Source: Maricaulis sp. (lineage in GTDB: Bacteria; Pseudomonadota; Alphaproteobacteria; Caulobacterales; Maricaulaceae). From it: a DNA stretch of 41,145 bases. Positions within the stretch are counted from its first letter, which is position 1. The number at the start of each line of letters is the position of its first letter. The stretch is from the NCBI GenBank assembly GCA_029251785.1, contig JAQXCQ010000163.1:1-41145 (forward strand). The letters run 5' to 3'. The position numbers and the translations under genes are program-made. Positions 23,890 through 37,079 of the stretch are shown one piece after another. The notes under the pieces were generated by a model. It did no database searches and had not been told where the DNA came from. It saw only the letters and a program-made list of their open reading frames with translations.

Positions 23890-24879
23890 TCAGCGGTTTG
23901 CCTGCAAGGCATCCCGCTTCGCCTTGAGGCGGGCAAAATCCTCGCCGGCGTGATAGCTCGAACGTGTCAGTGGCGTCGCTGAAACCTGTAAGAAGCCCTT
24001 CGCTCGCGCGATGGTTTCATAGCTCTTGAATGCGTCCGGAGTAATAAATTCTTTCACTGGCGCATGCTTGCGCGTGGGCTGCAAGTATTGACCGATAGTG
24101 AGAAAATCGATGCCTGCGGATCTCATATCATCCATGACCTGCATCACCTCCTCCTTGGTCTCGCCGAGACCGACCATAATTCCGGATTTGGTGAATTGGG
24201 ACGGGTCCCGATCCTTTACCCGTTCAAGTAATCGCAGGGAATGAAAATATCGCGCGCCGGGTCGGATCGAGAGGTATAAGCGCGGTACCGTCTCCAGATT
24301 ATGATTGAAGACATCTGGCCGGGCGTCGATGACCGTTTCGGCCGCACCAGATTTCCGTAAGAAATCCGGGGTTAAAATCTCAATCGTCGTTCCTGGAGAA
24401 GACGAACGGATCGCCTCGATCACGTCAACAAAATGTTGGGCCCCTCCATCGGCGAGATCATCCCGGTCCACCGAGGTGATCACCACGTGATTCAACCCCA
24501 TTTCCGCAACGGCCTCGCCAACACGGCGCGCTTCATCGGCATCTACAGGCCCGGGCAATCCCGTTTTAACGTTACAGAACGCGCAAGCCCGCGTGCACGT
24601 GTCGCCCAGGATCATAAATGTTGCGTGCTTTTGCTCCCAACATTCTCCAATATTGGGACAGCCCGCTTCCTGGCACACCGTGACCAGTCCGCCGTCCTTG
24701 ACGATCTTGTTTGTCTCTTCAAACAATTTGCCCAGAGGGGCCTTAACCCGAATCCAATCCGGCTTCCGCAAAATCGGCGAATCCGCCCGTTTTTGCTTTT
24801 CCGGATGTCGCGAAGCGCGTGCATCCGCTGCTTGCTTATTCGCGTCCTTGACGGCGCGATTATCGATCAAATTGGCCAT
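23890..24879 (-). CDS. lipA: lipoyl synthase
   Basis: A 329-residue radical SAM enzyme that inserts two sulfurs into octanoyl-lysine of lipoyl domains, such as that of PdhC encoded later in this window. The auxiliary cluster cysteines are in [13 protein letters not shown] and the radical SAM cluster is in [16 protein letters not shown] near the C-terminus carries the conserved serine ligand. The upstream bases before the ATG read CCTCCCC, the reverse of a Shine-Dalgarno sequence, and a long imperfect hairpin lies just before that. Confidence 0.95.
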
Positions 24880-24983: not shown

Positions 24984-25475
24984 CTAGGTCTTGCCTCGCG
25001 CCTTATCACTCGTGTCTTCGTCGACACCCTTAATTGGCTCATTCCCCATACCATTCAGCGCGGATATCGCATGATAGGCCAAGAGGGGGCCCCAAATGAC
25101 AGCGACAATACCGACAATATCACCACCCAGCCCAACGAACCGGTCGAGAACAACCAGCCAAGTCATGAAAAAGGCGAAAACAGCAAAATGTATAATGACC
25201 CGCTTCCAGGCCCTGTCGATACTGGCCAGAAAGCCAAGATCGTGAACGATTTTCGAGTTTTGATTTTGCATATGCGTATGCTCCTGAACAGCGTTTGAAC
25301 CATTCTGGAATTCAGAGCTGGAAATACCGAAACTCGCCGACAAGGCTTTGATTGTCTCAAGGCCTGGCGTTTCACCATTCTCGATCCGCTGAACGGTACG
25401 AACGCTCAGCCCGCTGATTTCAGCAAGTTGTTGCTGGGACCACCCATTATCAAGACGACGTTGCTTCAATTCCAT
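24984..25475 (-). CDS. XRE-type transcriptional regulator with C-terminal 2TM domain
   Basis: A 163-residue protein. Residues 1-60 are a Cro/CI-type HTH (KQRRLDNGWSQQQLAEISGLSVRTVQRIENGE). The C-terminal half has two hydrophobic helices (about 95-145) matching the 2TM domain family, so the regulator is probably held at the inner membrane. I chose the ATG at 25475, which has GGAG ten bases upstream; an upstream GTG/ATG extension to 25526 lacks one. Membrane-tethered XRE-2TM regulators usually control nearby genes or themselves; the target here is not known. Confidence 0.8.
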   Translation of the reverse strand: MELKQRRLDNGWSQQQLAEISGLSVRTVQRIENGETPGLETIKALSASFGISSSEFQNGSNAVQEHTHMQNQNSKIVHDLGFLASIDRAWKRVIIHFAVFAFFMTWLVVLDRFVGLGGDIVGIVAVIWGPLLAYHAISALNGMGNEPIKGVDEDTSDKARGKT

Positions 25476-25628
25476 AGTTCTCGGCTCCAAATCCAGAAGC
25501 CAAACCCTATCGGTCCAGCTTCGCAAGCAACACGACGGCGACCTGACAGGGATCAGACATCACCCCGCCAAACACACTACACGAAGCCGACATTTCTTAT
25601 TTTGGAGCGAAAGACAATGTTTAAATGA

Positions 25629-27735: not shown

Positions 27736-28239
27736 TCAGTCGAAGGACAAGCGGATCGGATCGCGCCGGCCAGGCCCTTGAAATGCTGTTCGGACCGCGC
27801 TGTCGAAATGCAGATTCGTCATCATTGACTGGTCATCAAACTGCTCGGCGAGCAAATCATTGTCGACGATAAAGCCATTTCCGATCTCCGGCACGTCGGC
27901 CGTAAAATAGATCCAGGCAAATTCGCCGTCCATTTCCGCTCCGATATATGTCAGATCAAACAGCAAGCCGGTATTGTCGGCAAAGCGAAACAGGGGGGTC
28001 ACATAGGCACCCACCTCTTCAACACCTTCGGCGGTCGCAAAGAATTCCGCCTCATGCACATTGTCCCGCCCGATGGCCACCAAAAGATCATCAGCGAATA
28101 AGCGATGGACAATTTCCATTTCATTCGTCGACGAATTGATCGTGACTTCAGTCACACCCGCGTGGAGCCGGTGCGCAAAAACCGGGGCCGTGAAAATCAC
28201 GGCCCCGGCCAAAACGGAGATAAACAGGTTCGGGCGCAC
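27736..28239 (-). CDS. DUF6702-like exported protein
   Basis: A 167-residue protein with a signal peptide (MRPNLFISVLAGAVIFTAPVFAH). The mature start HRLHAGVTEVTINSSTNEMEIVHRLFADDL and the later MDGEFAWIYFTADVP match the pattern I associate with DUF6702, a family of unknown function often encoded beside M1 metallopeptidases. Its GTG start overlaps the peptidase stop by one base, so it is co-translated with that gene. It is convergent with the Rieske oxygenase gene. No catalytic residues are evident. Confidence 0.72.
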   Translation of the reverse strand: MRPNLFISVLAGAVIFTAPVFAHRLHAGVTEVTINSSTNEMEIVHRLFADDLLVAIGRDNVHEAEFFATAEGVEEVGAYVTPLFRFADNTGLLFDLTYIGAEMDGEFAWIYFTADVPEIGNGFIVDNDLLAEQFDDQSMMTNLHFDSAVRTAFQGPGRRDPIRLSFD

Positions 28240-30674
28240 TATTGTGAGCGAGTCCGAATACTGTCACGAGTTACCGCGCGATCCAGATTATCCATCATGT
28301 TCGAACTCCGTGAGGAGCTCCGATAGATTTCCAGCCGTGTCGGTTCGATACGAGGCGGGTAGTAATTGTCGGTGCGGTCCGCATCAGCAGTTTCCCAAAG
28401 CGGATCGAGCTCCACAGACACAACTTCCTGATCTGTGAGATACGACCACGTGATATTTTGTGGATTATAGCGCCACACTTCGGCTGGAATACGAACGATC
28501 TCCGTATTGCCATTGGCAAAGGTGAATTCCAGGATGATCGGCATCACGACACCACCTTCATTGGTGAAGTCGAGATAATAAACCCGCTCATCGCTATCGA
28601 TAATCTCCGCTTCCCAGTCCTCAAGACCCGCACGCATGCCTTCATAGGCTTCGGTTTCCCGATTGGTCACGGTGAATTGGTCATTCTCGGAATAGAAATC
28701 GATCACTTCACGGTTCGAGTCTGAATAGAACTCGATACCTTCGGCGCGATTATTGGCCTGGGTCAGGCTCTCGGGACGATCATTGAACTCGTCCCGGCGA
28801 CGGGCATTTTCAATGCGGGGATTTTCCGTACCGATCGTGCCTTCAATCACGCGATCGAGCGAGATATCAACATGGGCCGTGGAATAGAACCAACCGCGCC
28901 AGAACCAGTCGAGGTCCACACCGGACACTTCTTCCATCGTCCGGAAGAAATCATACGGAGTCGGGCGCTTGAAGCGCCAGCGCCGTGAGTAGGTGCGGAA
29001 GGCTTCATCGAACAACTCACGGCCCAGAATGGTCTCGCGAAGGACAACAAGAGCAGTTGCCGGCTTGCCATAGGCATTGCCGCCAAAACCAAGAATGGAA
29101 TCAGATTGCGTCATGATTGGCATCTGGCTGGTCGATGTCATGTAAGGGATAATCAGGGCCGGATCACCGCGGCGAACCCGGTGATTTTCCTCCCACTGAC
29201 GCTCGGCCTGGAATTGCAGGAAGGTGTTCAAACCCTCATCCATCCAGGTCCACTGTCGCTCGTCGGTATTGACGATCATTGGGAAATAATTGTGCCCAAC
29301 TTCGTGAATGATCACACCAATCAGGCCAAGCTTGGCCCGGGCAGAATACGTGATATTGCCTTCATCATCGACAACCGGACGACCGTAAGTTCCGCCGTTG
29401 AAGGAGATCATTGGATATTCCATACCGCCCTGACGACCGGCAATGGATTGCGCGGTTGGGTAGGGATAGGGGAAGGAAAAATGAGAATAGACGTCCAGCG
29501 TGTGCTCTACGGCCCGGGTTGACCATGTCGACCACAGAGGCTCGGACTCATTGGGATAAAACGACATCGCCATAACGGTGTCGGGCCCAATGCCCTCCCC
29601 GTCCTGCTCAACACCAATAGAATCCCAGATAAATTTACGTGAGCCCGCCCAGGCAAAATCGCGGACATTTTCGGCATGAAATTCCCAAGTCGCTCGCTCG
29701 CGTGTGCCACGGGCCTCATTGGCGCGCGCTTCAGCCGGCGTGACGATGAAGACGGGCTCATCAGCGGTGCGCGATGTTTCGAAACGCTCCATCTGTGTGT
29801 CGGTCAAAACCGCTTCGGCGTTTGTCAGCTCACCAGTCGAGGCGACAATGAAATCTGCCGGCACGGTGATCGAGACGTCGTAATCGCCAAATTCCAGGCC
29901 AAATTCACCGCGGCCGAGGAAGGCTTTATTGTGCCATCCCTCATAGTCGGAGAAGACAGCCGCCCGTGGGAACCACTGGGCGATTTGGTAGATACAATCA
30001 CCACCAGTGTCGTCGGTTTCCTCAAAACATTCCCAACCGGCACGACCACCAATCGCACCCGTTTCAACGAGCAAATAATTGAACTCTATTGTGAAGGTAA
30101 TTGACTGGCCCTGGGTCAACTCATCATCCATATCGATCCGCATTAGCGTGTCGACAATGGTGAAATCCATCTCATTGCCGTCAGCATCTGTGACGGCCGT
30201 TATGTTGAAGCCATAACCGTTCTCGGCCAGCATGTGCTGACGACGGACCGCTGCCGCGGAGATCCCTTCCGGCATGGAGCTACCGACGCGACCAGAGGAG
30301 CGGCCACCGCCGCCAACCGTTGCCGTCAAATTCCCAATAGAATCGGCGCGGAAGCGGTTCTGGTCCAGCAGGAACCAGAGGAAACCCAAATCATCTGGAG
30401 CATTATTGGTGTAGGTGACGGTCTCGGTAGCTGATAGAATATTGGTGCGCTCATTCAGCGTCACATCAATATCGTAATCGACTTGCTGCTGCCAGTAATC
30501 CGGGCCCGGAGCACCCGTCGCACGACGTTCACGGTTTGGCGACGGCCAATCCTCGTCCTCAAGCTGACGGAAGGCATCCACCCAGTCATTGGTGGTTTGC
30601 TGGACCGGCTGCGCGGCCGCGACACCAAAAGTCGCAGCCGCACTGGCCATTACAAAAGTTCTAAACAAACGCAT
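28239..30674 (-). CDS. exported M1 family metallopeptidase
   Basis: An 811-residue secreted zinc aminopeptidase-like enzyme with signal peptide MRLFRTFVMASAAATFGVAAAQ. The zinc site HEVGHN (near residue 453) is followed at the right distance by the Glu ligand in WMDEGLNTFL. RQGGMEYPM corresponds to the GAMEN-type substrate loop of the family. The N-terminal beta-domain and a long C-terminal region, with a helical part and beta strands, are typical of bacterial M1 peptidases. It leads a two-gene operon with the DUF6702-like gene. Confidence 0.9.
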   Translation of the reverse strand: MRLFRTFVMASAAATFGVAAAQPVQQTTNDWVDAFRQLEDEDWPSPNRERRATGAPGPDYWQQQVDYDIDVTLNERTNILSATETVTYTNNAPDDLGFLWFLLDQNRFRADSIGNLTATVGGGGRSSGRVGSSMPEGISAAAVRRQHMLAENGYGFNITAVTDADGNEMDFTIVDTLMRIDMDDELTQGQSITFTIEFNYLLVETGAIGGRAGWECFEETDDTGGDCIYQIAQWFPRAAVFSDYEGWHNKAFLGRGEFGLEFGDYDVSITVPADFIVASTGELTNAEAVLTDTQMERFETSRTADEPVFIVTPAEARANEARGTRERATWEFHAENVRDFAWAGSRKFIWDSIGVEQDGEGIGPDTVMAMSFYPNESEPLWSTWSTRAVEHTLDVYSHFSFPYPYPTAQSIAGRQGGMEYPMISFNGGTYGRPVVDDEGNITYSARAKLGLIGVIIHEVGHNYFPMIVNTDERQWTWMDEGLNTFLQFQAERQWEENHRVRRGDPALIIPYMTSTSQMPIMTQSDSILGFGGNAYGKPATALVVLRETILGRELFDEAFRTYSRRWRFKRPTPYDFFRTMEEVSGVDLDWFWRGWFYSTAHVDISLDRVIEGTIGTENPRIENARRRDEFNDRPESLTQANNRAEGIEFYSDSNREVIDFYSENDQFTVTNRETEAYEGMRAGLEDWEAEIIDSDERVYYLDFTNEGGVVMPIILEFTFANGNTEIVRIPAEVWRYNPQNITWSYLTDQEVVSVELDPLWETADADRTDNYYPPRIEPTRLEIYRSSSRSSNMMDNLDRAVTRDSIRTRSQ

Positions 30675-30744: not shown

Positions 30745-32070
30745 CTACCTGTCCGATTTGTCATCTTCAGGAGGGGTGTCATCGTCATTGACTGACGCAT
30801 CTTCCTCCGAAGCCGGCTCGCCCACCGGATCAGCTTCAACAACTGGACTGGCCGCTGCGGCGGGAGCGGCCGCAGCAAGTGGCGCTGTCTCGGTTGATTC
30901 CTTGTCGAAGATCGACAACGTCCAAGCACCCAATCCGATCCACAAGGTCAGGAAGCCAATTAACACGCCGAGCAATGGCACGAAGGCCAGCGCTGACAAG
31001 ACAACTGCGGCCACCAGCAGCGAAATAATCCGCATACCCATGCCGAGCCGGCCTTCGCTGCCACCGCGATTTAGAAGCAGGTCACCGAAGGCGATGACGC
31101 CCAGTGTAAATGCGACGTAATGCATCGGCAGATACAAGATCCACATCAGAGCAACCAGCGGGATACCAACAATCGTTGCCGCCAAAATACCACTCAGCAC
31201 ACCCATGATGACCGGCAACATGGCCAGCATAATCAGACCCACAAGACCCGAAACGGCTGGACGCCGACGGAATGATTGAGAAACACTCGTGATCCAATTG
31301 GGTAGGATCGCAATCAAGAGCATACCAAACAGAACCGACCCGGCGAAAATGGCCATACCGATGACACCAAGCACGATAATCAGCGCGCCTACCGGATTGT
31401 TGATATCGAGATCGATATCCATCTCATGCATCAGGTGCTTGAAGCTAAAGTCGAAATCTTCGTAGGTGTAATCAACCGGGCTCGTCAGTGTCGCCCCCGG
31501 CTCGATGATCGCCTCGCGGGGCCCCTCAAGCGAGATTGTCCCTTCAATGACAGCGCTGCTCTCAATTCGCAGGTGAGCGGCAAGCACTTCAACATCGCCC
31601 CGAACGGTTCCCGCGATTACAACCTCATCGCCGGCCAGGTTAACGTCTTCCTCGACAATCGACGACGCGGTAAGTTCCACATGGCCGCCCGCCATTTCGA
31701 GTCCGCTCAGTCCATGTCCGGAAAAGCGAACATCGCCCCCGAAGGCTGAAATTTGGCCACCAACCCGGGCTTCGATATCAATATCGCCACCCGCCGTTTC
31801 GATATAGCCTTCAACATCGCCGGCAATATTCACGTCACCGCCGACAACTTCGATATCGCCCTCTACCGTGGCATCGATATCGATATCGCCTGCGATACCT
31901 TCAATATCACCTTCGATCAGGCCCGTGGCACGAAACTCACCGGCAATAACCTCGATGGACTGGCTGCTGCCCTGGGTGTGATAATCACCCCCCAGGACCT
32001 GCGCGCCGGAGACACCGGCAAATCCTAAAGCAGCCAGCCCCGCGGCCACAATCATGTTTTTGATGGACAT
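30745..32070 (-). CDS. exported/membrane protein with bactofilin-like 17-residue repeats and transmembrane C-terminus
   Basis: A 441-residue protein. After a signal peptide (to about residue 23), residues about 45-200 consist of a 17-residue repeat, for example VEGDIEVVGGDVNIAGD and VEGYIETAGGDIDIEAR, predicted to wind as a beta-helix as in bactofilins and polymer-forming proteins. Residues about 225-405 form some five to six membrane helices, followed by an alanine/acid-rich tail. The repeat part should face the periplasm if the signal is used. It sits 56 bases downstream of the related lipoprotein gene and may be cotranscribed with it. Its function is unknown. Confidence 0.75.
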   Translation of the reverse strand: MSIKNMIVAAGLAALGFAGVSGAQVLGGDYHTQGSSQSIEVIAGEFRATGLIEGDIEGIAGDIDIDATVEGDIEVVGGDVNIAGDVEGYIETAGGDIDIEARVGGQISAFGGDVRFSGHGLSGLEMAGGHVELTASSIVEEDVNLAGDEVVIAGTVRGDVEVLAAHLRIESSAVIEGTISLEGPREAIIEPGATLTSPVDYTYEDFDFSFKHLMHEMDIDLDINNPVGALIIVLGVIGMAIFAGSVLFGMLLIAILPNWITSVSQSFRRRPAVSGLVGLIMLAMLPVIMGVLSGILAATIVGIPLVALMWILYLPMHYVAFTLGVIAFGDLLLNRGGSEGRLGMGMRIISLLVAAVVLSALAFVPLLGVLIGFLTLWIGLGAWTLSIFDKESTETAPLAAAAPAAAASPVVEADPVGEPASEEDASVNDDDTPPEDDKSDR

Positions 32071-32126
32071 AATAATCCTCCCTGCGCCCCCCGGCGATCA
32101 GGTTAGTTGTCAAATTGAAATGACCG

Positions 32127-32894
32127 CTAGCGGTCGAGAATATCGTCGCAATCGCGGCCGTCTCGGGCCTCAAAAACGAGATTGCCAGAATCGGCACCGG
32201 CGTCGATTGACGGAGTTTCCTCAGCCCATACTCGAAGCGTGCCCGACACATTTGCCGTCGACGTTAATCGTAATGTGCGCGTACAAACCTCCCCGCCATC
32301 CACGATTTCGCCAGATAATTCGATCCGGCCATGGGACACTTCATCTCGACGACGATTGCGAATTTTGTTCGCCGCCACCAGCGTCAGCTCTCCGCGAACC
32401 CGACCCGCCATATAAATTTCATCGGCAGCAGCGGACAGCCCGTCATCAAAGGTCGCTGCGAGCGTCATTTCACCGGCGGCCAGCGAGGCCTCACCGACGA
32501 TATGCCCTGCAACATTCAGCTCACCGGCGGCGATGCTTAATTCGTCACCGACATCAGCGGACCAATCTACATCACCAGCCGCCACAGAGGCTTCACCACC
32601 AACAGATCCCGTGAAATCAACATCGCCAGCGGCCAGCGAAACATCACCGCCCACTTCGAGAGCGTCTGCCGTCACATCACCGCTGATCAGACTGAGATCA
32701 CCGCCGACTCGGCCCCGCAAATCAATATCACCACCGATTCGGCTATAACTTCCGTCACGGTCGAGCACCCGGAAGCCGTCAGAATTTTTGAATTCGTTAA
32801 AATCCTTGTCACCATCTCCGGATACAACAAGAACGCAGCCCGAAGTCGTCAGGGCGGCCAGCATTGCAGCGGTCGCCATCCATGCCTTGCGCAT
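32127..32894 (-). CDS. lipoprotein with bactofilin-like 17-residue repeats
   Basis: A 255-residue lipoprotein: signal peptide with lipobox LTTSGC (Cys at 20). Residues about 55-175 hold consecutive 17-residue repeats such as VGGDVSLAAGDVDFTGS, VGGEASVAAGDVDWSAD and VGDELSIAAGELNVAGH, predicted to form a right-handed beta-helix. The C-terminal part has a cysteine in GGEVCT and the ending ARDGRDCDD, both shared with the lipoprotein at 34897-35562. The gene is divergent from the acyl-activating enzyme across an AT-rich gap and read in the same direction as the gene at 30745. The role is unknown; an outer-membrane-anchored scaffold is plausible. Confidence 0.75.
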   Translation of the reverse strand: MRKAWMATAAMLAALTTSGCVLVVSGDGDKDFNEFKNSDGFRVLDRDGSYSRIGGDIDLRGRVGGDLSLISGDVTADALEVGGDVSLAAGDVDFTGSVGGEASVAAGDVDWSADVGDELSIAAGELNVAGHIVGEASLAAGEMTLAATFDDGLSAAADEIYMAGRVRGELTLVAANKIRNRRRDEVSHGRIELSGEIVDGGEVCTRTLRLTSTANVSGTLRVWAEETPSIDAGADSGNLVFEARDGRDCDDILDR

Positions 32895-32978
32895 GTAATT
32901 CTCCTATCAATATTGCTCATCAACCGATCTCGACCGACTCGCAATAAACACTCCCCAGCGTTTGACGTCAGCATACAT

Positions 32979-33018
32979 TATCGAAAAACGATATCAAGCG
33001 ATTTTTTGTTTATCGATA
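32979..33018. promoter_or_regulatory. TATCG/CGATA motifs in divergent intergenic region
   Basis: TATCG-AAAAA-CGATA at 32979-32993 is a perfect inverted repeat with a five-base spacer, and TATCGATA at 33011-33018 is a second palindrome with the same half-site. They lie near the middle of the 262-base AT-rich gap between the repeat lipoprotein gene (minus) and the acyl-activating enzyme gene (plus), where both promoters must be. They are candidate operator sites; no cognate regulator can be named. Confidence 0.4.
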
Positions 33019-33156
33019 ATTATTTCTTGATTTACGAGATATCCAACGTGAATATTCGTATTTCAAGCGGCATCCGCCCTTCCCTCTTCGGTTTAGACGA
33101 GTAATATCCAACGCAATGGAAAGCATGCGCAAAAGACGCGTGCACGGGAGGACTAC

Positions 33157-34782
33157 ATGGCTGAAACCACGGCCGCTGAACCTCAGGAGGCCCCGGCCGA
33201 ACCTGTTGCAGCTGAACACCTGTACAAAGGCGCTGATTTCGATTTGCGTCGAACTCGCAAGACAGTTTTCGCTGGATTATTGCAATCGCGGAATCGCTAT
33301 GGCGGCAAAAAAGTTGCCATCATCGACGCTGACGGTCGGGAAATGACCTATGACGAGCTCATTCAGGGCGTCTTTGCCCTGGGGCATGCGCTCAAGGCCG
33401 GGACGGAACCGGGTGAAGCGGTGGCGATATTGATGCCGACCGGGATCGGCGCAGTCATCTCTTTCTATGCGGTATCCGCCTACGGGCGGGTACCCGCTAT
33501 GCTGAACTTCACCGCCGGTGACAGTGCCCTTAAGGCTGCCTGCAAGGCTTGCCAATGCACCAAAATTATAACCGCGCACAGATTCATCGAGCTCGGCGAG
33601 TTAGAAAAACTAGAAGCGGAACTCGCGGCAGATCACACCATGATCTACCTTGAAGACGTGCGTGCCAATATGACGAAAATGGACAAGGCAGCGGCAGTCC
33701 TTGGGACCATCGCGCCTTGGGCGGTGCGGGCTTGGCAATCCCCTGATTCTCCAGCGGTCTACCTGTTCACGTCCGGCACTGAAGGTGAGCCAAAGGGGGT
33801 TGTGTTGAGCCACGCCAACCTGCTGGCCAACGTGGAGCAAGTCCGCGACCACATCACCTTGCTTCCGACGGATATTTTGTTCAATCCAATGCCAACATTC
33901 CACTGCTTTGGACTGACGGGCGGCGTCTTATTGCCCTTGGGATTCGGAATTCCCGCAGTTTGTCACCCGACACCGCTGCAAGCCAAAACCATTGTTAAAC
34001 GCGTGGCAGAGACGAAATCCACGATCCTGTTCGCGACAGACACATTCATGAGTCAATATTCCAGGGCGGCCAATGACGAAGATCTCAAATCGCTTCGATT
34101 CGCCGTATGTGGGGCAGAACGCGTAAAAGATGAAACACGGTCAACCGTTCGACGTCGATTCAATCTTGATATAATCGAGGGTTATGGACTGACCGAAGCG
34201 GCCCCGGTGCTCTCGGTCAACCAACCTGGCAATAACAAGCCTGGTACCGTCGGGCAGCTCATGGCCGGATGTGAAGCCAAGCTCATCCCGGTTCCCGGTA
34301 TTGAAGATGGGGGGCAATTACACTTTCGGGGCCCCAATCTAATGCAGGGTTACATCCGAGCCTCCAACCCCGGTGTGCTTGAACCGCCGGCAGAGGGTTG
34401 GCACGATACGGGCGATATCGTCTCAATCGACGATCAGGGCTTTCTTAGAATCCGTGGGCGCATCAAACGGTTCGCCAAAATCGGCGGAGAAATGGTGTCG
34501 CTGGCAGTCGTCGAAAATTGCGCCAATTCTCTCTGGCCTGAAAACAGCCACGCCGCCGCCACCCTACCCGACAAACGCAAGGGCGAGCAGGTGATTTTGA
34601 TCACTGATTATGCCAAGGCAGACCGGGCGGATCTTGTCGCATTCGCGAAAAATCACGGTGTCACAGATTTGGCCATTCCAAAAAAGATCATCCAGGTCGC
34701 CGAGGTGCCTGTTCTGGGAACCGGAAAGACCGATTACGGGCGTGTCACTGCGATCGTCAAGGAAGCCATGGAAAAACCATAG
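33157..34782 (+). CDS. AMP-forming acyl-activating enzyme (acyl-ACP/acyl-CoA synthetase, Aas-like)
   Basis: A 541-residue ANL superfamily ligase. The phosphate loop is YLFTSGTEGEPKGV, the adenine motif EGYGLTEAAPV, the hinge DTGDIVSIDDQGFLRIRGRIKR, and the C-terminal catalytic Lys is in GTGKTDYGRV. The body resembles the ligase half of bifunctional Aas (2-acyl-glycerophosphoethanolamine acyltransferase / acyl-ACP synthetase), but the N-terminal acyltransferase domain is missing. Residues 1-25 are an acidic, Ala/Pro/Glu-rich extension. GGGAGG lies seven bases before the ATG. It may recycle free fatty acids into membrane lipid. Confidence 0.85.
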   Translation: MAETTAAEPQEAPAEPVAAEHLYKGADFDLRRTRKTVFAGLLQSRNRYGGKKVAIIDADGREMTYDELIQGVFALGHALKAGTEPGEAVAILMPTGIGAVISFYAVSAYGRVPAMLNFTAGDSALKAACKACQCTKIITAHRFIELGELEKLEAELAADHTMIYLEDVRANMTKMDKAAAVLGTIAPWAVRAWQSPDSPAVYLFTSGTEGEPKGVVLSHANLLANVEQVRDHITLLPTDILFNPMPTFHCFGLTGGVLLPLGFGIPAVCHPTPLQAKTIVKRVAETKSTILFATDTFMSQYSRAANDEDLKSLRFAVCGAERVKDETRSTVRRRFNLDIIEGYGLTEAAPVLSVNQPGNNKPGTVGQLMAGCEAKLIPVPGIEDGGQLHFRGPNLMQGYIRASNPGVLEPPAEGWHDTGDIVSIDDQGFLRIRGRIKRFAKIGGEMVSLAVVENCANSLWPENSHAAATLPDKRKGEQVILITDYAKADRADLVAFAKNHGVTDLAIPKKIIQVAEVPVLGTGKTDYGRVTAIVKEAMEKP

Positions 34783-34839
34783 ACAACCAAACCGGCCGCC
34801 GAGCCGGTCTCATAATTATTCAAATTGTGAACAAAAAAG

Positions 34840-34870
34840 AGCCCGGCGACCATGAGGTCGTCGGGCTTTC
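34840..34870. terminator. bidirectional intrinsic terminator
   Basis: A 12-bp stem (34840-34851 with 34856-34867, one G-T pair) closes a four-base ATGA loop. It has an A-run on the left (34833-34838) and a T-rich run on the right, so it can end both the plus-strand acyl-activating gene and the minus-strand lipoprotein gene. A smaller hairpin (ACCGGC / GCCGGT, 34791-34808) lies just before it. Confidence 0.85.
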
Positions 34871-34896
34871 TTCTGAGTGATGTTGAACTATTCGTT

Positions 34897-35562
34897 TTAT
34901 AGATTCAAATCGTCACAATCACGCCCGTCCAGCGAACGAAACTCGTACGAACCGCCATAATTTTCCGGCCGGTCATCCGAAATCAGGATCAACTCGCCGT
35001 CAACACGTGCCTCATCTCGAAACTCAATCTCGGTGGCACAGATCGTACCCCCCTGGGCAAGATGTCCGGAAATAATGGCATGCCCACTTTGATCATTACC
35101 CTCGCCGATCAGTAAAACGGGGCCATCAAACTCACCGCGCAGATGAATGCGTGCCGTATTGGCTTCAAGCCGGCCACCAACCCGACCGTCGATGGTAATA
35201 CGCGCCGCCGCGACATTGAGGTCGCCCTGAAAATCAGCATCTAGATTGCCTGATGCGGTCGCAACGTCAGAATTTCCGGCGACGCTGCCACGGAAATTCA
35301 CGCGGGCCCCCGCCACTGAAAGGTCACCGCCAACTTCCATATTTGAACGCACCGTCGCGCCCGCTAATTCAAGATCTCGCCCAACTTTGCCATCGGCGCG
35401 TACGATCATTCCTGCAAATTCCGCATCGCCTGTCACATCGATATTGCGAGACGCAATCATGCCGGCACTTTCCACCGAACGGTCATCTTCAGGACCATGG
35501 GATGAATATGTGCAGGCTGTCATTGCCAGTGCAGACGTAGCGACCAGGGCCAATTTGAACAT
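34897..35562 (-). CDS. lipoprotein with bactofilin-like 17-residue repeats (paralogue)
   Basis: A 221-residue lipoprotein starting at the ATG at 35562, which has GGAGAG five bases upstream. Lipobox MTAC with Cys near 17. Residues about 38-160 are 17-residue repeats, including VGRDLELAGATVRSNME, VGGDLSVAGARVNFRGS and FQGDLNVAAARITIDGR. The C-terminus, with GGTICA and SLDGRDCDDL, aligns with that of the lipoprotein at 32127-32894, so the two are paralogues flanking the acyl-activating gene. The two conserved cysteines could form a disulfide in the periplasm. The function is unknown. Confidence 0.75.
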   Translation of the reverse strand: MFKLALVATSALAMTACTYSSHGPEDDRSVESAGMIASRNIDVTGDAEFAGMIVRADGKVGRDLELAGATVRSNMEVGGDLSVAGARVNFRGSVAGNSDVATASGNLDADFQGDLNVAAARITIDGRVGGRLEANTARIHLRGEFDGPVLLIGEGNDQSGHAIISGHLAQGGTICATEIEFRDEARVDGELILISDDRPENYGGSYEFRSLDGRDCDDLNL

Positions 35563-35678
35563 CGAATCTCTCCATACCGGTTGACGCAGGTGTGCGCCGG
35601 CTTTGGGAGTATGATGCATCTATCCTGACGAATGGATGCAGGGATTGTGCGTAAAGGAGTCCCCTCTTACGCGAACCC

Positions 35679-37079
35679 CTACATGTGCAGGGTTTTCCCA
35701 TAGGCATCGAGAACGCTCTCATGCATCATTTCCGACAAAGTCGGGTGCGGGAAGACTGTGTGCATCAGTTCTTCCTCGGTCGTCTCTAGCTGACGGGCGA
35801 CAACATAGCCCTGAATGAGCTCCGTGACCTCGGCACCAATCATGTGCGCACCCAGTAATTCACCGGTCTTTTCGTCGAAAACGGTTTTGACCAACCCCTG
35901 ATCATCCCCGAGGGCAATGGCCTTGCCATTCCCCACAAACGGGAATTTTCCGACCTTAACTTTGTGCCCGGCAGCCTTCGCAGCCGCTTCGGTCATCCCG
36001 ACCGATGCGACCTGCGGATGGCAATAGGTACAACCCGGTATATTACCGGTTTCAAAGGCATGAACTTTTTGGCCAGCGATTTTCTCAACGCAGATGACAC
36101 CCTCATGGCTGGCCTTGTGAGCGAGCCACGGGGGCCCGGCCACATCACCGATAGCGTACAGCCCTTTGATGTTCGTGCGACCAAAGCCATCATTGACCAC
36201 ATGGCCGCGATCGACCTTCACGCCCAATGCCTCAAGACCCAGCTTTTCGACATTGCCAACAATACCGATCGCGAGAATGACTTTCTCCACTTCGACGATC
36301 TCGGCCTTGCCCTTCGCGTCCTTCAAATGGACCTTCACCGTCTTGGCCAGCTTTTCCAGCTTCTCGACCTGTGTTGAGACCTTCAGCTTCATGCCCTGCT
36401 GCTTGAAGGACTTCGCCGCGAGTTTGGAAATCTCTTCATCTTCGACCGGCAATACGCGGTCCATCATTTCGACGACCGTGGTATCGGCACCCATCGTATT
36501 ATAGAAGCTGGCAAACTCGATGCCGATCGCCCCGGACCCGATGACCAGAAGAGACTTTGGCATTTCCTTGGGAACCATCGCCTCGCGATAGGTCCAAATT
36601 TTGTCCCCATCCGGCTCAAGCCCGGCCGCGGGCACAGTGCGCGCGCGGGCACCGGTCGCGAGAATAACGTGTTTGGCGGAGTACTTGTCCTTGCCAACCA
36701 TCACCACGGGCGCCGCCACGCCCTTGAGCAGGCTGGCCTCCCCCTTGATCACCGTGACCTTGTTCTTCTTCAGCAGCATGCCGACGCCGCCCGACAGACG
36801 CGACGCAACCCCGCGGGAGCGCTTGACGATCGCATCAATATCAAAGTTTATCCCGTCCGCCTTCAAACCAAAGTCCGAGGCGTTGTGCATTAAATGATAG
36901 ACTTCAGATGTGCGCAGTAGCGCCTTGGTCGGAATACAGCCCCAATTGAGACAGATGCCGCCAAGACTATCGCGCTCAACAACCGCTGTTTTCAGTCCCA
37001 GCTGAGACGCGCGAATAGCCGCAACATAGCCTCCAGGGCCGCCACCAATAACAATCACATCGAATGTAGTCTCAGCCAT
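35679..37079 (-). CDS. lpd: dihydrolipoyl dehydrogenase (E3)
   Basis: A 466-residue flavoprotein disulfide reductase that reoxidises dihydrolipoamide in the pyruvate and 2-oxoglutarate dehydrogenase complexes. The FAD motif GGGPGGYVAAIRASQLG and the redox-active pair GGICLNWGCIPTKALL (Cys43, Cys48) are present, as are the NAD motif GSGAIGIEFASFYNTMG and the C-terminal catalytic pair in HPHPTLSE. In relatives lpd usually follows pdhC; here about 2.7 kb of other genes lies between them, one of which is on the opposite strand. Confidence 0.95.
   Translation of the reverse strand: MAETTFDVIVIGGGPGGYVAAIRASQLGLKTAVVERDSLGGICLNWGCIPTKALLRTSEVYHLMHNASDFGLKADGINFDIDAIVKRSRGVASRLSGGVGMLLKKNKVTVIKGEASLLKGVAAPVVMVGKDKYSAKHVILATGARARTVPAAGLEPDGDKIWTYREAMVPKEMPKSLLVIGSGAIGIEFASFYNTMGADTTVVEMMDRVLPVEDEEISKLAAKSFKQQGMKLKVSTQVEKLEKLAKTVKVHLKDAKGKAEIVEVEKVILAIGIVGNVEKLGLEALGVKVDRGHVVNDGFGRTNIKGLYAIGDVAGPPWLAHKASHEGVICVEKIAGQKVHAFETGNIPGCTYCHPQVASVGMTEAAAKAAGHKVKVGKFPFVGNGKAIALGDDQGLVKTVFDEKTGELLGAHMIGAEVTELIQGYVVARQLETTEEELMHTVFPHPTLSEMMHESVLDAYGKTLHM

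Follow-up and report, generated by a model that had tools for sequence, protein, structure and literature searches.

Predicted export and membrane anchoring of three bactofilin-like proteins at the lpdA locus of Maricaulis: a possible cell-envelope scaffold

Introduction

Bactofilins (PF04519) have been studied as cytoplasmic scaffolds. Described members such as BacA of Caulobacter and Hyphomonas, the Thermus protein 6rib and CcmA of Helicobacter are right-handed beta-helices with coils of about 17 residues, and bactofilin filaments use two end contacts. By definition these proteins are cytoplasmic and leaderless, with a short N-terminal membrane-targeting peptide, and they polymerise without nucleotides to form non-polar filaments. 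Transmembrane bactofilins also exist; in Proteus CcmA, according to a 2025 bactofilin survey, the anchor consists of N-terminal helices that are discussed as inserted in the cytoplasmic membrane, and homologues with N-terminal helices were dropped from that survey before analysis (PMC12448750). Among the best 5 to 25 rows of each literature search for exported bactofilins, two of them dominated by unrelated papers, there was no study in bacteria, which does not prove absence.

Here we analysed a window of 41,145 nucleotides from the marine bacterium Maricaulis sp. (contig JAQXCQ010000163.1). The initial annotation had described three exported proteins built from a common 17-residue repeat, and had proposed a bactofilin-type beta-helix for them. 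We refer to them as A, B and C.

Results

A shared 17-residue repeat in three proteins with export signals

The three genes lie on the minus strand in the order lpdA-C-B-A, an order that is conserved.

30745–32070, minus strand: gene A, 441 aa, with a signal peptide, a bactofilin-like beta-helix predicted to be periplasmic, five predicted membrane helices and a tail
32002–32070, minus strand: signal peptide of A, residues 1–23, with a nearly invariant A23-Q24 site as the probable cleavage position
31459–31998, minus strand: beta-helix of A, residues 25–204, from the predicted model
30907–31395, minus strand: membrane domain of A, about residues 226–388, N-out and C-in by the positive-inside rule
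32127–32894, minus strand: gene B, a predicted lipoprotein of 255 aa with a beta-helix at residues 42–243 and a C-terminal cap
32835–32837, minus strand: predicted lipid-anchor cysteine of B, residue 20 (TSGC-VLVV)
32283–32285, minus strand: cap Cys204 of B, invariant in 22/22
32148–32150, minus strand: cap Cys249 of B, invariant in 22/22
34897–35562, minus strand: gene C, a predicted lipoprotein of 221 aa with 17-residue repeats, a fold expected from homology and a C-terminal cysteine-paired cap like that of B
35512–35514, minus strand: predicted lipid-anchor cysteine of C, residue 17 (MTAC-TYSS)
35038–35040, minus strand: cap Cys175 of C, invariant in 23/23
34915–34917, minus strand: cap Cys216 of C, invariant in 23/23
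35679–37079, minus strand: lpdA (dihydrolipoyl dehydrogenase), the upstream border of the locus
23890–24879, minus strand: lipA-like lipoyl synthase (Radical_SAM and LIAS_N), the other border in relatives; here further genes separate it from A

The repeat was borne out in all three proteins. At a lag of 17 residues, identity gave z values of 7.1 (A), 7.9 (B) and 9.7 (C) relative to 1000 shuffles per protein, lag 34 ranking second, and hydrophobicity gave 6.3, 3.4 and 6.4, respectively. The repeat stretches had been picked by eye (residues 31–200 of A, 39–190 of B, and 46–200 of C in the numbering of its longer ORF). In the neighbouring ligase, M1 peptidase and LpdA, used as controls, z stayed at or below 2.7 across lags 1–40.

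Export of A, B and C, as predicted from their signals, is well supported. In an alignment of 25 members of A, the residues expected at the cleavage site, A23 and Q24, are near-invariant. A lipobox closes the leader in 22/22 aligned members of B and in 19/23 of C, the window's own proteins included; the other four C members have leaders that lack the cysteine. B and C are thus predicted to be lipidated. The B alignment leaves out two sequences, a 277-residue protein (L085) that has a lipobox and one of 109 residues (L083) in which the pattern used found none. For C, we kept the start at 35562 rather than that of the longer ORF at 35619, since the lipoprotein leader begins at 35562 and orthologues align from there, as first annotated.

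The membrane C-terminus ascribed to one of the proteins corresponds to five helices predicted in A (residues 226–255, 271–297, 302–333, 344–361 and 365–399). Lysine and arginine of A are enriched in loops 1 and 3 and in the tail.

A scan for promoter-like (8 versus 6.3 expected, sd 2.6) and terminator-like elements (14 versus 10.6 expected, sd 3.0) gave counts near expectation, so we gave them no weight.

A predicted bactofilin-type fold outside the bactofilin definition

AlphaFold2 models of A and B show beta-helices (strands 29–203 and 42–243, respectively), with pLDDT above 90 in most blocks. Residues 96–202 of A superposed on the Thermus bactofilin 6rib with a Z score of 11.7 (1.6 Å, 98/101 residues), in line with the fold originally proposed. 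GlmU is a left-handed helix and HxuA a right-handed one; in superpositions used as a proxy for handedness, GlmU fitted at about 11 Å and HxuA at about 3 Å. These predicted models support a right-handed, bactofilin-type beta-helix of about 17 residues per coil for A and B. For B, bactofilin was not among the structural superposition rows, and a Foldseek search with both models gave no match at E ≤ 0.001.

Sequence homology to bactofilins is borderline. Against the PF04519 cut-off of 27.9 bits, whole C scored above (29.1–29.8 bits) and whole B below (19 bits), whereas A gave no bactofilin match by hmmscan of the whole protein and 28.7 bits in a six-frame search. At E 0.01, the model matched 9/25 A, 14/22 B and 18/23 C members. 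Searches of PDB sequences with the A, B and C profiles matched bactofilin weakly (E 0.004–0.41), the A profile hitting 2n3d (E 0.004) and 6ria (E 0.006). Within the trio, B aligns with C over the full length, cap included (hhalign E 3.6e-38), and with A by profile (E 1e-36), values that are inflated in repeat proteins. C would accordingly share the bactofilin-type fold by homology, and the cap cysteine pairs of B and C may each form a disulphide.

Other database matches were set aside. A tail-fibre match of B (E 8e-5) is not evidence of phage origin, because repetitive beta-helices match one another. Pfam matches to Coa1, FapA, TamB, Big_7 and similar families were below cut-off or present in only one or two members.

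With their leaders and lipoboxes, A, B and C would be bactofilin-fold variants that fall outside the bactofilin definition by location. Unlike described bactofilins, they are predicted to be exported and membrane- or lipid-anchored, A through a five-helix membrane domain, and B and C carry cysteine-paired caps. Proteus CcmA likewise combines a bactofilin domain with membrane anchoring, but in the trio a cleavable or lipidated leader would place the domain outside, and the anchor of A is C-terminal (PMC12448750 for Proteus CcmA). Export had been flagged as unusual for bactofilins, and this agrees with our survey of Pfam-bactofilin proteins sampled from Pseudomonadota. It returned 65 matches, one of them A itself; by a simple hydropathy test, 1/64 of the others has a hydrophobic N-terminus and 0/64 a lipobox, and survey rows L160 and L167 are both bactofilins without a leader.

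Distribution of A and its partners

Conservation was judged from tblastn maps, as gene maps based on the longest ORFs contain antisense artefacts. The trio is kept as a set: A occurs with at least one B- or C-type partner at the same locus in 17/17 other Maricaulis loci and in six other genera (one genome each). In trio-type loci, lpdA precedes the genes in 24/24 cases, and the loci usually extend to the lipoyl-synthase gene. Among 299 genomes of the order, B and C were seen only in the window's own family, Maricaulaceae. C is absent from one complete Maricaulis genome (G010), and in four of the 34 family genomes with matches to the C profile the sole match is A itself (G158, G190, G240 and G249).

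A lone A gene is also found at the lpdA position in other families. Outside the clade with B and C, A stands alone in 15/15 loci (14 from other families, and G104 from Maricaulaceae), which indicates that A, at least, can function independently of B and C.

The family of A is widespread and unnamed and has archaeal relatives. Its members include proteins from Clostridiaceae, Methanolinea and Rhodobacterales, and in those scanned no Pfam or NCBIfam model covered the membrane part above its cut-off. A Haloplanus protein annotated as 'polymer-forming cytoskeletal protein' (WP_340696375.1) aligns with A over 312 columns (hhalign E 1.4e-26, probability 99.7 percent), from the end of the leader through the helix and membrane domain, so that it shares the leader and both domains with A only. 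Unlike at the Maricaulis locus, no trio-like genes were found among the seven annotated features around it. The haloarchaeal envelope has an S-layer and lacks an outer membrane, and the halofilin HalB of Haloferax volcanii is a bactofilin of the outer cell surface. A review ascribes to HalB a role at negative curvature.

Alternative functions and the neighbouring genes

We weighed four readings other than a scaffold. The trio could act as a regulator or sensor of outer-membrane state: beta-helices bearing reactive cysteine pairs, at the cell surface or in the periplasm, would modulate permeability and envelope-stress signalling, as YjbI does in Caulobacter. B and C fit this description, being of beta-helix type, predicted to be exported and marked by an invariant cysteine pair, and universal stress proteins are encoded close to two distant A-type genes. 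YjbI, also from a stalked alphaproteobacterium, is described as a secreted beta-helix that contains conserved cysteine pairs and silences envelope-stress pathways; it is, however, a quadrilateral pentapeptide-repeat protein, and the likeness is one of functional analogy only (PMC12864828). Pfam scans of A, B and C detected no pentapeptide-repeat family. The scanned neighbours included no two-component or sigma/anti-sigma gene, although an HTH_3 regulator (24984–25526) lies several kb beyond A. We regard a regulatory role as unlikely.

Two further neighbours had been taken as part of an envelope-related system.

33157–34782, plus strand: LIG, a stand-alone acyl-activating (AMP-binding) protein of 541 aa, matching the ligase portion at the C-terminus of fused Aas (PRK06814); its membership in the system is uncertain
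28239–30674, minus strand: M1-family peptidase, located downstream of A; its leader resembles a signal peptide, as judged from the sequence, and it is probably outside the core

The description of LIG as an Aas-like lipid enzyme holds for the ligase part only: it scored 658 bits against NF005291 (curated cut-off 1349) and matched model positions 624–1136 of 1140; it is a stand-alone protein that lacks the remainder of the fused Aas and is not a full-length Aas. The proposal that it and the peptidase belong to the system found little support. Both genes are present in 17/17 other Maricaulis loci, but among the six other genera of the family each occurs at the locus in only one, and in two genomes the peptidase gene adjoins lpdA where no trio protein was found.

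The ligase is central to a second reading, in which it re-activates fatty acids from lysophospholipid or lipoprotein turnover at a membrane site organised by A together with B and C. In the 17/17 other Maricaulis loci and in one further genus (G025), the ligase gene separates C from B, or adjoins B if C is lacking, and in two genera from another family it neighbours an A-type gene; LIG is also the only close copy in its genome (next best, 30 percent). Against such a lipid-handling unit, the gene is on the opposite strand and off the locus in 5/6 other genera, being kept elsewhere in two (G030 and G032) and giving no match at E 1e-60 in three (G022, G027 and G031), despite the presence of A and partners. 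A ligase tree of 18 rows, with 5/15 inner branches well supported, did not separate locus from non-locus copies and is thus silent on whether the ligase was present from the start. We consider this reading improbable.

Somewhat more doubtful still, B and C might be surface adhesins or components of a matrix for which the beta-helix serves as a sticky rod, with A an unrelated membrane protein sharing the repeat. Superposition of the A and B models did return secreted HxuA, an ice-binding protein domain and tapirin as structural neighbours, but such matches are expected for any beta-helix, and A, B and C align mutually by profile and are kept side by side.

That the trio are ordinary cytoplasmic bactofilins whose signals are artefacts of start choice can be dismissed as almost certainly wrong, even with C above the Pfam cut-off: the leaders and lipid cysteines recur across many species, the topology predicted for A, with five membrane helices, puts its beta-helix on the outer side, and the genome encodes a separate canonical, leaderless cytoplasmic bactofilin, the gene of which overlaps an M23 peptidase gene.

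Discussion

We tentatively favour, at slightly less than even confidence, that the trio are exported, membrane-anchored bactofilin-fold proteins acting as a static cell-envelope scaffold. The five helices would set A in the inner membrane, from which a rod of some ten coils would project into the periplasm. B and C would be lipoproteins most likely located in the outer membrane, since the lipid cysteine is followed by a residue other than aspartate, with rods closed at the far end by the cysteine-paired cap. Stacking would probably involve exposed ends or edges of the rods, between copies of A or between A and B and C, and such stacks would space, link or stiffen the two membranes. Partnership of the three proteins, their polymerisation and the mechanical role are what we infer from this arrangement. 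One of the two end contacts of bactofilin filaments would be obstructed by the cap in B and C and, in A, by the aromatic linker that leads from the helix towards the membrane, so that classic filaments may not form.

A broader and rather unlikely proposal is that the trio constitutes a second, periplasmic bactofilin-fold cytoskeleton, anchored in both membranes of a diderm cell (the inner for A, the outer for B and C) and working alongside the cytoplasmic BacA-LmdC system. Its origin would lie in the duplication of an ancient bactofilin that was already exported and membrane-anchored.

The trio locus indicates that the bactofilin fold is also exported in Alphaproteobacteria. The predicted inner-membrane form, A, occupies one chromosomal place in several families, and the lipoprotein forms appear to have been added in the Maricaulis family. 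If the trio assembles, the inner membrane would have bactofilin-type scaffolds on either side, and the existence of a separate periplasmic filament system would become a testable question.

Three exported proteins with a 17-residue repeat

The window is a contig within a 3.16 Mb draft genome of Maricaulis, which is placed in the family Maricaulaceae. It contains three genes, here called A, B and C:

30745-32070, minus strand, A, 17-residue-repeat gene
32127-32894, minus strand, B, 17-residue-repeat gene
34897-35562, minus strand, C, 17-residue-repeat gene

For repeat stretches picked by eye, identity z-scores at lag 17 were 7.1 (A), 7.9 (B) and 9.7 (C), with lag 34 second best, against at most 2.7 at every lag from 1 to 40 in three neighbouring control proteins. 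The 17-residue repeat described in the initial annotation is far above chance. That annotation had also claimed secretion signals, two lipoproteins and one membrane C-terminus, all of which were borne out: leaders were found in all three, a lipobox in 22/22 B and 19/23 C members (the remaining four C proteins have the leader and lack the lipid cysteine), and five predicted helices after the beta-helix of A. In the 41 B and C lipoboxes, the residue following the lipid cysteine was V, I, S or T, and D in none. By a rule known from enterobacteria, a residue other than D directs a lipoprotein to the outer membrane, which points to an outer-membrane placement of B and C. Across 25 A members, K plus R averaged 3.84 in loop 1, 2.92 in loop 3 and 2.20 in the tail; the segment ahead of the first helix averaged 1.16, and loops 2 and 4 had a mean of 0.00. 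By this distribution the beta-helix lies outside and the tail inside.

At their C-terminus, B and C have a common cap containing two invariant cysteines (22/22 B, 23/23 C), between which a disulphide may form. Profile alignments, whose E-values are inflated by the repeats, joined B to C over the whole length (E 3.6e-38) and B to A across A's leader and helix (E 1e-36).

Predicted fold and comparison with canonical bactofilins

AlphaFold2 models from alignments of 25 (A) and 22 (B) sequences had mean pLDDT of 83.2 and 85.8, respectively. Both gave the beta-helix that the initial annotation had expected, with strands at 29-203 in A and 42-243 in B, followed in A by helices at 226-255, 271-297, 302-333, 344-361 and 365-399. 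The proposed likeness to bactofilin structures stood for A, whose residues 96-202 fit the Thermus bactofilin 6rib (Z 11.7, 1.6 A over 98/101 residues, 21 percent identity), but bactofilin was absent from the structural-comparison rows aligned to the B model. Both models fit right-handed beta-helices such as HxuA at ~3 A, and left-handed ones such as GlmU or LpxD at ~11 A. Foldseek returned no match to either at E <=0.001. C lies above the Pfam bactofilin cut-off and B below it; A reaches it only in a six-frame search.

A single bactofilin in this genome scores strongly (92 bits); it has 173 residues, starts MFNK and lacks a leader. Its gene overlaps that of a 411-residue M23 peptidase (L001:1360-3100, G000:C172), resembling the BacA-LmdC module that PMC10945521 describes in Hyphomonas and Rhodospirillum. 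At E 1e-5, 53/120 Pseudomonadota genomes (this one counted) had a bactofilin match; by a simple hydropathy test, only 1/64 of these proteins had a hydrophobic N-terminus, and none of the 64 a lipobox or C-terminal membrane stretch, in line with the earlier claim that export is unusual for bactofilins.

HalB is an archaeal bactofilin of the outer surface. Among the matches listed in the open-access literature, we found no study that describes bactofilin-like proteins exported as lipoproteins in bacteria. Membrane-inserted homologues are already known; according to PMC12448750, N-terminal helices are predicted in ~3.2 percent of the bacterial bactofilin-domain entries of UniProt. By location, A, B and C fall outside the bactofilin definition and therefore should not be named bactofilins without qualification.

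Conservation of the locus

A search with B matched 25 of 61 genomes, including this one: 17/18 other Maricaulis genomes (the missed one has a completeness of 65 percent), six further genera of the family, and a single genome beyond the family, in which an A-type protein gives the match. The order lpdA, C, ligase (an acyl-activating protein, opposite strand), B, A, M1 peptidase, DUF6702 is kept in 17 other Maricaulis loci, with C absent from one. In the six other genera (one genome read in each), the interval from lpdA to lipA, the lipoyl-synthase gene, holds A together with one to three partners of B/C type. One of these genomes, G022, has a B-like lipoprotein frame (L083:10839-11168) just 109 residues long, possibly a shortened partner.

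Within the order, 299 genomes were searched with the C profile and 36 matched, 34 of them inside the family; in four of these 34 (G158, G190, G240, G249) the sole match was A itself. Since both matches from beyond the family (G113, G169) fall in A-type frames, the B/C lipoproteins appear restricted to this family within the range covered, namely the order for the C profile and the 24 genomes whose loci were read.

The ligase and M1 had been proposed as part of an envelope-related system. Their order is kept in the 17 Maricaulis loci, but each is at the locus in only 1/6 other genera (ligase, G025; M1, G027); both are neighbours of long standing and not proven components. The ligase (33157-34782) is a stand-alone version of the ligase part of fused Aas and has no other close copy in this genome. 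The M1 and DUF6702 genes (27736-30674) have a one-base overlap and stay together; two relatives (L067, L070) carry another M1 copy, on the far side of DUF6702. Between lipA and the M1 end of the locus lies an HTH_3 regulator with a sub-threshold 2TM match (24984-25526). A phage tail-collar domain protein (PF07484; 38080-38574) adjoins metabolic genes, with several neighbouring relatives in L076, L078 and L088.

The wider A family and the lpdA-lipA gap

In the order, 54 of 299 genomes have a match to the A profile (35 in the family), as do 7/299 of a phylum sample, this genome included. We read 15 A-type loci outside the B/C clade, namely 14 (one of them, G104, in the family) plus L089. Each has one A-type gene, and neither B nor C was found at any. 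Five of the fifteen are located at lipA, as lpdA-A-ligase-lipA (L233, L234), lpdA-A-lipA (L235, L239) or A-x-lipA (L238). This suggests that the chromosomal place of A, and perhaps its ligase neighbour, predate the family.

We also compared twelve family genomes that lack A, B and C at the locus and in which lpdA was found; G104 has a distant A elsewhere. Nine carry an opposite-strand acyltransferase (Acyl_transf_3) downstream of lpdA:

L141, L142, L144-L148, L150, L151: opposite strand, Acyl_transf_3 after lpdA

In 6/9, lipA was seen beyond it within the stretch fetched, and the lpdA-lipA gap thus looks like a variable slot. M1 adjoins lpdA in 2/12, and in L149 no Acyl_transf_3, M1 or lipA was found in the stretch at lpdA.

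Clostridiaceae, Methanolinea and Rhodobacterales also have A-type proteins. In Haloplanus, a plasmid-encoded protein with the annotation 'polymer-forming cytoskeletal protein' can be aligned with A across both the helix and the membrane domain. Among members scanned, no Pfam or NCBIfam model covered the membrane part above cut-off. Distant A-type genes at L242:3313-4206 and L244:2024-2839 have genes for universal stress proteins (Usp, PF00582) nearby and may form a second subgroup of A, linked to stress.

A putative envelope scaffold

The main rival to a structural role is a regulatory one like that of Caulobacter YjbI, a secreted beta-helix that has cysteine pairs and, according to PMC12864828, controls the composition of the outer membrane; B and C resemble it in both features. 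Against a scaffold, B and C carry caps, loci can lack C and perhaps both partners, and elsewhere A occurs on its own. The best reading is that A, B and C are exported, doubly anchored beta-helix rods. The analysis shows the sequence features, the fold predicted for A and B, the leaders, the pattern of topology and the synteny, while interaction, assembly and function are inferred: anchored in this way, the rods would act as an envelope scaffold.
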